Below, piece by piece: positions 6,249 to 7,659 of a stretch of DNA of 35,890 bases. Source of the stretch: an uncultured Mycoplasmatota bacterium (lineage in GTDB: Bacteria > Bacillota_I > Bacilli_A > RF39 > UBA660); contig CAMJBC010000001.1 of NCBI GenBank assembly GCA_946403755.1, positions 144,735 through 180,624 of the forward strand, in the 5' to 3' direction. A program made the position numbers and the translations under genes. The notes below the pieces were generated by a model. It ran no database searches and was not told the DNA's origin. It saw only the letters and a program-made list of their open reading frames with translations. Within the stretch, counting starts at the first letter, position 1. Every line of letters starts with the position of its first letter.

Positions 6249-6280
6249 CTAATGATTATATTTGAACTTAGTTCAATTAA

Positions 6281-6313
6281 AAAAAACAATACTTGATTAA
6301 GTATTGTTTTTTT
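6281..6313. terminator. Bidirectional terminator
   Basis: AAAACAATACTT-gatt-AAGTATTGTTTT, a 12-pair stem flanked by A and T runs. It serves the tRNA pair on the plus strand and the metallophosphoesterase on the minus strand. Confidence 0.85.
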
Positions 6314-6315
6314 AT

Positions 6316-7458
6316 TTATCTAGTAAGAGTTCTACCCTTACCTGTGATTTCAACTTCATTCATAGTAACAAATTTTTCTGTTGGTTTAAATAATGGTGTA
6401 ACACCTTCAGAAATAAGCATATAGTGGAAATTATTACTAAGTATTAAACTTCTTGCATGTCTTTCATCAATTGGTTGCCAATCTTGTTGGTTTGGTTCAT
6501 TTGTAATGTTGATATAGAATTTTCCTTCAGGTGATTGCCATATTCTTTGTTGTGCATTATTATCAATATAAACAATTCCACGGCATAAATTAATTTTTCC
6601 TAAATAAATTGGGAAAAGTTTTCTTTTAATCTTTTTACCATCTTTATCAACTATGTATGATGGTTGATCTGTAAATCCTCTATCAAATAATAATGAATTA
6701 TCAGCATCTAAAGATTTGAATCCTTTACCAGTCAAGGCAGTTTTTAATCTTTCTAAATATTCAACTACAAGTCTATATCCATCATGTAAGTGACCTGTTA
6801 TGAAAAAATCACAACTTGATAAATCACCAAGTCCAATTCCGTTTTCTGAAGCAGCAATTAAATGTGGATCGTGTCCTAAATAAACATTTATAACGCCATC
6901 TTGATTACTGAATTTAACCCCTTCTCTATTGTAGTCTGCTATAAATTCATCATGAGCTAAACCATGGACTTGAATTTTAAGTCCTCTTTTTTCCATTAAT
7001 TCAAATCTAGGAACATAACCAACTACTTCCATTCCTTTAACAAAAACTCTATCATTATATAATGGGAAAACATTTCCAGATCTTACATTTTCTAAGTTTT
7101 TGAATTTTTTTATTCTTCCTTGAAGATTCTCATCTGTTTTGATTCCTCTTAAGTCATGGTTTCCCCAGGTAATACATACAGGGGCTATTTCTGATATTGC
7201 TCGAATAAAATATTCAAATGATTTTAGTTTTTCACTATTCTCCCAAGAACTACCACCACTGAATATATCACCAGCGATAAATATAACCTCGGGTTGTTGC
7301 ATTTGAATGTACTCGATTAATCTAATAGTTCTTTTTAAGTCATTTGTGTACCCGTGAAGATCAGCTAATGTTAAAGTTCGAATACTTTGTCCTTCCTTTA
7401 ATTTTTCACTTTCTACTTTTTGTTTTACCAACTTTCCTTTAAAATTGGTTGTTTCCAT
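6316..7458 (-). CDS. Calcineurin-like metallophosphoesterase, intact active site
   Basis: 380 residues, cytoplasmic, no signal peptide. All binuclear-metal motifs are present in order: ADLHG (about 33), AGDIF (about 63), WGNHD (about 98), LGHDPH (about 195) and GHLHDGY (about 223). These coordinate two metals, usually Mn2+ or Fe/Mn, in phosphodiesterases and phosphatases. The substrate is not clear; the C-terminal 130 residues match no family I recognise. AGGAGG lies eight bases before the ATG. It stands alone behind a probable Mn2+ riboswitch and terminator, consistent with a Mn-dependent enzyme made when Mn is available. That link is inference. Confidence 0.92.
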   Translation of the reverse strand: METTNFKGKLVKQKVESEKLKEGQSIRTLTLADLHGYTNDLKRTIRLIEYIQMQQPEVIFIAGDIFSGGSSWENSEKLKSFEYFIRAISEIAPVCITWGNHDLRGIKTDENLQGRIKKFKNLENVRSGNVFPLYNDRVFVKGMEVVGYVPRFELMEKRGLKIQVHGLAHDEFIADYNREGVKFSNQDGVINVYLGHDPHLIAASENGIGLGDLSSCDFFITGHLHDGYRLVVEYLERLKTALTGKGFKSLDADNSLLFDRGFTDQPSYIVDKDGKKIKRKLFPIYLGKINLCRGIVYIDNNAQQRIWQSPEGKFYINITNEPNQQDWQPIDERHARSLILSNNFHYMLISEGVTPLFKPTEKFVTMNEVEITGKGRTLTR

Positions 7459-7513
7459 ATTTCATTCCTCCTTTTCTAAAAAATTTTTATAAAGGTCCTA
7501 AATAAAATATGGT

Positions 7514-7548
7514 AAAAAAAACAAGACCTTTATAGTTAAAAGTCTTGT
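7514..7548 (-). terminator. Riboswitch-controlled terminator
   Basis: On the minus strand ACAAGACTTTTA (5' arm) pairs with TAAAGGTCTTGT (3' arm), followed by eight Ts. The 5' arm overlaps the 3' strand of the aptamer, so aptamer and terminator exclude one another. A second complement of the 3' arm (GACCTTTAT, 7497-7489) lies downstream. Confidence 0.85.
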
Positions 7549-7623
7549 CCGATTTTACTCTATTACACCGAAAATTAATGTGTTTGACGAATGCAATACA
7601 TTCAAGGACTACTCCCTGTTAAC
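7535..7623 (-). promoter_or_regulatory. Probable Mn2+ riboswitch (yybP-ykoY class)
   Basis: The minus-strand RNA has a closing stem GUUAA/UUAAC. An internal loop follows with CAGGGAGUA on its 5' side and AAGACUUU on its 3' side. Then come a GUCC/GGAC stem, a GAAUG/CAUUC hairpin, GUCAAACAC, and an ACAC/GUGU hairpin. The GGGAGUA and CAAGAC loop strands and the GUCAA segment match what I recall of the yybP-ykoY consensus. The layout predicts an ON switch: ligand-bound aptamer sequesters the terminator 5' arm. The class call comes from motif and layout, not a covariance search. Confidence 0.7.
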
Positions 7624-7630
7624 GGTTTAC

Positions 7631-7659
7631 ATTATACCATAAAATCGTCTAAAAGTAAA
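7631..7659 (-). promoter_or_regulatory. Promoter of the riboswitch leader
   Basis: TTTACT (7659-7654), a 17-base spacer and TATAAT (7636-7631) with extended TGG on the minus strand. Initiation is predicted a few bases before the aptamer. Confidence 0.8.

Follow-up and report, generated by a model that had tools for sequence, protein, structure and literature searches.

A divergent yybP-ykoY-type leader RNA ahead of a metallophosphoesterase gene, and its relatives before non-transport genes

Riboswitches of the yybP-ykoY class (RF00080) are known from structures of the L. lactis and X. oryzae RNAs and from the mntP and alx leaders of E. coli. The L. lactis and X. oryzae RNAs bind Mn2+ through the N7 of an invariable adenosine in loop L3 (UCA41AUUC and ACA48UAC, respectively; PMC6754395), and for L. 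lactis a strand common to P1.1/L1 and a terminator has been described, together with read-through in Mn2+ (PMC11087558). Control at the levels of both transcription and translation by one aptamer has been predicted for dual expression platforms, in which the ribosome site lies inside the 3' arm of the terminator (Barrick and Breaker 2007, PMC2258182).

The leader described here lies in a window of 35.9 kb (the whole stretch of DNA analysed) from an uncultured Mycoplasmatota bacterium. It resembles the known class in the L1 strands GGAGUA and AAGA, in the invariant C-A of L3, in helices P1.1, P1.2 and P3.1 and in a terminator that shares the 3' strand of P1.1, and in the class's other families such RNAs likewise have transporter targets. 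It differs in being a short form below Rfam detection, in that P2 or P4 is often missing (both in the window), in the targets, which in the window's own family are mostly non-transport genes, and in an extra strand, C, after the terminator. Like the dual platforms, leaders of this kind may use one aptamer at both levels; unlike them, they would do so by a separate strand C that alternates between terminator arm and Shine-Dalgarno. What is new here is that in this family the switches have moved beyond metal pumps and now precede many genes of unrelated function, and that many of their leaders carry strand C, a second conserved pairing strand. This non-transport regulon, a second copy in the same genome and strand C itself are additions to an initial annotation of the DNA, which had proposed a Mn2+ riboswitch controlling a metallophosphoesterase.

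Layout and class membership of the leader

The full leader, encoded on the minus strand, occupies 7659-7458 and comprises promoter, RNA (7622-7536), terminator, Shine-Dalgarno and ATG (Table 1), with about 60 nt from the terminator to the AAAAGGAGG Shine-Dalgarno and the ATG of the phosphoesterase at 7458. Several elements named in the initial annotation were found in place. TTTACT and TATAAT, 17 nt apart and with a TG extension ahead of the -10, lie upstream of the RNA and match the consensus at 10 of 12 positions; because a promoter scan returned about as many promoter-like sites as in shuffled sequence, the support for this promoter is its position and a similar TGGTATAAT-like box before many homologous leaders. 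The loop strands CAGGGAGUA (L1, 5'), CAAGAC (L1, 3') and CGUCAA (L3) are present, and the terminator (7550-7519), a 14 bp stem plus U-run, does overlap the aptamer, whose 3' strand is its 5' arm. The folding of the 136-nt leader (z=-4.8 against shuffles) is due mostly to this terminator, since with the terminator removed the aptamer alone folds no better than shuffles (z=0.04).

Table 1. Features of the locus, in window coordinates
Feature	Position	Strand	Details
Terminator-like hairpin with U-run, after the phosphoesterase gene	6279..6309	-	from sequence; not listed by terminator scan
Metallophosphoesterase gene, 380 aa	6316..7458	-	PF00149, E=2.8e-14
Shine-Dalgarno region AAAAGGAGGAAUG	7463..7475	-	from sequence
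Strand C	7488..7500	-	can form 13 pairs with terminator arm B; predicted alternative Shine-Dalgarno partner
Strand predicted to pair with start-codon region	7500..7512	-	minimum-energy folds
Intrinsic terminator	7519..7550	-	arms: strand A 7537-7547, strand B 7522-7534; U-run follows
yybP-ykoY-type aptamer	7536..7622	-	R2 and R3 matches; covariation
P1.1	7616-7620 with 7538-7542	-	one mismatch (C)
L1 5' strand GGAGUA	7610..7615	-	other strand AAGA 7543-7546
P1.2 5' strand GUCC	7606..7609	-	pairs with GGAC 7547-7550
P3 hairpin	7561..7598	-	UAUUGCAUUCG 7588-7598 with CGGUGUAAUA 7561-7570
L3 start UCA	7585-7587	-	predicted Mn2+-ligand adenosine at 7585, by alignment with PMC6754395
Promoter	7631..7659	-	-35 TTTACT 7654-7659, 17-nt spacer, extended -10 TG-TATAAT 7631-7636

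The RF00080 search that the initial annotation had proposed as a check returned nothing in the window, at the cut-off or at E<=10, which is part of what that annotation had named as a refutation, and the model had no match in the window's own genome, in 114 genomes of the family or in 120 of the phylum. The same model (Rfam 15) places the authentic Mn2+ riboswitches of E. coli K-12 mntP and alx below its gathering score of 45 bits, so its silence is weak evidence against a short or divergent member; the gathering cut-off is a detection threshold and no biological feature. Three class-level loci outside the family were scored at E 1.5e-5 to 0.0015, below that cut-off. Weak matches to other Rfam families, such as MIR478 and SSRC10, lay far below the cut-offs of those families and were rejected.

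Purpose-built covariance models recognise the RNA. R2, built without the window sequence, finds it as the only match in the 35.9 kb (50.3 bits, E=3.4e-12). R3, whose seed combines mntP and alx of E. coli with 21 transporter-type leaders from other families and leaves out the window's own, gives a single match (44.0 bits, E=2.5e-9); across the 35 family loci tested it recovers every one of the 36 leaders. Because the R3 seed was aligned with R2, which holds family members, the alignment, though not the sequences, was informed by the family. At E. coli mntP and alx, the best matches of both R1 and R2 fall on the leader aptamers.

A DNA search recovered the same RNA in relatives (best match 79% identical, E=5.7e-16), and a pattern search of 385 genomes of the order gave 18 sites in 12 genomes, the reversed pattern giving 0. 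With R1 there were 38 sites in 26 of 370 genomes of the order, and 58 of 247 genomes of the class carried sites; three of the 38 sites in the order were set aside as weak (L097 and L106, with a broken core, and L098, which lies within what looks like the reading frame of an ABC transporter). When 20 of the sequences were aligned by MAFFT (A2), 97.2% of cells in P1.1, P1.2 and P3.1 were paired, against 83.0% shuffled, with changes on both sides in 10 pairs (47 cells); P1.2 is paired in 20/20, one of its pairs exchanging C-G to U-A. In A4, an alignment fitted to the structure and holding 37 sequences on which R1 had not been trained, 95.9% of cells are paired and both-side changes occur in 157. 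A phage origin was rejected, since neither a relative of the phosphoesterase nor either of two aptamer patterns turned up in viral contigs.

The assignment to the Mn2+ riboswitches of the yybP-ykoY class is thus backed by independent covariance models, by covariation and by invariant binding-site nucleotides. Family membership, the conserved core and the mutual exclusion of P1.1 and terminator are established by computation; judged by its sequence the window RNA is a yybP-ykoY RNA, and by analogy with described members it very probably antiterminates in response to Mn2+. We give a probability of about 0.75 to the reading of the leader as a divergent yybP-ykoY (Mn2+) riboswitch that is ON by antitermination, its ligand and ON logic being inferred from the family. 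At low Mn2+, strand A would pair with strand B and transcription would stop; at high Mn2+, the ion would bridge L1 and L3 through A7585, and this docking would stabilise P1.1; with strand A thus retained by the aptamer, no A:B terminator would form and RNA polymerase would read on. Against this reading stand the silence of RF00080 on the window, the absence of P2, P4 and a closed P3.2 from the window copy, an aptamer that by itself folds like shuffled sequence, a target that is no Mn transporter, and phosphoesterase homologs without the RNA.

Genes downstream of the aptamer

The regulated gene encodes, as had been proposed, an intact metallophosphoesterase, with the DxH, GD, GNHD and GHxH motifs present. 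It shares intact binuclear-metal motifs with the calcineurin-like enzymes of PF00149, and its metal-binding motifs (DLH, AGDIF, GNHD and GHLH) are kept in three homologs. NCBIfam matches to YaeI, PdeM and SbcD are weak, all NCBIfam scores being far below cut-off, so no specific subfamily is assigned, and a search by sequence found no relative in the PDB. A relative of the enzyme occurs in a Bacillota metagenome assembly.

The initial annotation's further idea, that Mn availability gates a Mn-dependent enzyme, is conjectural, and its suggestion to look for the same riboswitch-enzyme pair in related genomes recovered the RNA with 1/4 of the enzyme family members found, the window's only. The three homologs (59, 52 and 42% identity) have no riboswitch before them; a conserved pairing is therefore rejected, and the combination of aptamer and phosphoesterase is so far unique.

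Among 37 family leaders, 32 precede non-transport genes and five precede transporters, namely one P-type ATPase and four CaCA (by Pfam for one of each). The non-transport targets include Nuc_deoxyri_tr2-like FLGGTCA proteins (deoxyribosyltransferase-like) in five genomes, counting the second copy in the window's own genome, SPFH proteins in three genomes, NfeD, AdoMet decarboxylase, the phosphoesterase, small lipoproteins and unknowns. That second copy (L107, 7005-8000, contig 10 of G000) stands before a gene for a 136-aa unknown, the FLGGTCA protein being encoded by the second gene, after it; a CaCA gene and a P-type ATPase gene of the same genome both lack the aptamer.

Outside the family, the 21 class-level loci that supplied leaders for R3 precede 13 P-type cation ATPases, five CaCA exchangers, two oxaloacetate-decarboxylase beta subunits and one CitMHS permease, gene types assigned by appearance and confirmed by Pfam for five representatives.

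Some individual loci are of interest in their own right. At L090 (1501-1586) the aptamer precedes a gene for S-adenosylmethionine decarboxylase (PF02675), a possible link between Mn2+ and polyamine synthesis. At L108 (7821-8514, contig 3 of G206) two aptamers stand in tandem, followed respectively by the genes of a 138-aa unknown and of an SPFH protein, in a genome with six copies in all. The oxaloacetate-decarboxylase beta subunits (PF03977) and the CitMHS-type permease (PF03600) at L129, L132 and L124 are neither of them an obvious Mn exporter.

Strand C and a possible second level of control

In many leaders the U-run is followed by a strand complementary to terminator arm B (in L086, for example, B is UAUAAAGGUCUCG and C is CGAGACCUUUAUA), and in the window the B:C duplex reaches -15.3 kcal/mol (p=0.002 against shuffles). 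B:C pairing goes beyond shuffles (p<0.01) in 19/32 non-transport leaders versus 2/26 transport leaders (Fisher 7e-5), counts that are not independent because leaders of related genes share ancestry; the two transport cases, L115 and L122, seem to stem from a script error in placing the end of the terminator. As modelled from these pairings, the bias suggests serial control of transcription and translation, in which the one aptamer of a non-transport leader would act on the terminator and then, through C alternating between B and the Shine-Dalgarno, on translation. Such control would extend the antitermination reading. In leaders that have C, a free B would pair with it and so expose the Shine-Dalgarno, giving a relay in which A would be claimed by either the aptamer or the terminator, B would pair with either A or C, and C with either B or the Shine-Dalgarno.

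Two further comparisons favour the relay. Leaders pair B with their own C at an average of -10.7 kcal/mol, against -5.8 when the partners are swapped. Masking strand A, as if it were held by the aptamer, makes the Shine-Dalgarno more accessible in C-positive leaders (+0.24), compared with a change of -0.08 in the remaining leaders (p=0.003). Direct pairing of C with the Shine-Dalgarno, however, exceeds shuffles in only 3/21 leaders and does not do so in the window, where accessibility stays at 0.34 (occluded) because 7500-7512 pairs with the start region, and C might serve instead to stabilise the 5' end of the RNA. In RNA extending up to C only, B:C is the minimum-energy fold both with A free and with A held, so a kinetic route may be possible. 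The first step, on transcription, is well supported by analogy with the described switches, while the second, on translation through strand C, is hypothetical; we rate serial control as a little short of an even chance. The same tentative standing applies to the broader proposal that a Mn2+ riboswitch has been redeployed in the family from metal export to a dispersed non-transport regulon, with a four-strand relay gating transcription and then translation.

The predicted metal site and the state of the window copy

The nucleotides expected to hold the metal are strongly conserved. The L1 strands are invariant in 57 aptamers, in which the pairs of P1.1 vary, and the predicted ligand adenosine, A7585 in the window's L3 (CGUCA), aligns with A41 and A48 of the known structures (PMC6754395) and is kept in 57/57; the structure-fitted alignment shows no variation in GGGAGUAG, in AGAC or in the C-A of L3. 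The L3 variants CGUCA, CGACA and CAACA each occur before both transport and non-transport genes, which on sequence grounds would argue for one ligand. A reading of these variants as specificity changes was dropped once the alignment showed an unchanged ligand adenosine next to a G-C pair that exchanges with A-U.

The periphery is more variable. The window copy has neither P2 nor P4 as a helix of at least 3 bp, and so no four-way junction, and is the sole one of the 57 aptamers to lack both; its distal P3.2 is open. Since one helix or the other is missing from many homologs, transporter leaders among them, the P2/P4 junction is treated as usual and non-essential, with the window as the extreme case. 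An unpaired conserved CCUUAAAUGU (window 7598-7608: CCUUGAAUGU) replaces the P2 hairpin in the window and in L034, L036, L037, L038 and L062.

Lacking P2 and P4, and with P3.2 open, the window copy may respond weakly or fail to respond. It could then be a decaying copy, recognisable by descent, that has lost its metal response and serves as a constitutive attenuator, an idea that also fits the C mismatch in P1.1 and the unconserved pairing with the phosphoesterase gene; we consider it unlikely, since the invariant core nucleotides, a P3.1 of 8-9 bp, P1.2, promoter, terminator and strand C are all intact. Slightly less likely again is an RNA of the yybP fold in which the pocket has turned to a different divalent metal, a variant that a review expects among yybP RNAs with diverse genes (PMC7266159) and that would explain targets unrelated to Mn export, most of the family's being non-transporters, but L1 and the L3 adenosine are invariant and the same L3 variants precede transport and non-transport genes alike.

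The reading as a divergent Mn2+ riboswitch has consequences beyond this locus. The standard Rfam model has a blind spot that leaves many Mn-riboswitch RNAs of a whole lineage unannotated, and the distribution of their targets suggests that in these small-genome bacteria Mn2+ is a signal for functions other than efflux. Genes of unknown function would be tied to metal status in this way, among them those of the FLGGTCA proteins (five genomes) and the SPFH proteins (three). If the strand relay is true, a single aptamer would control two steps in series.
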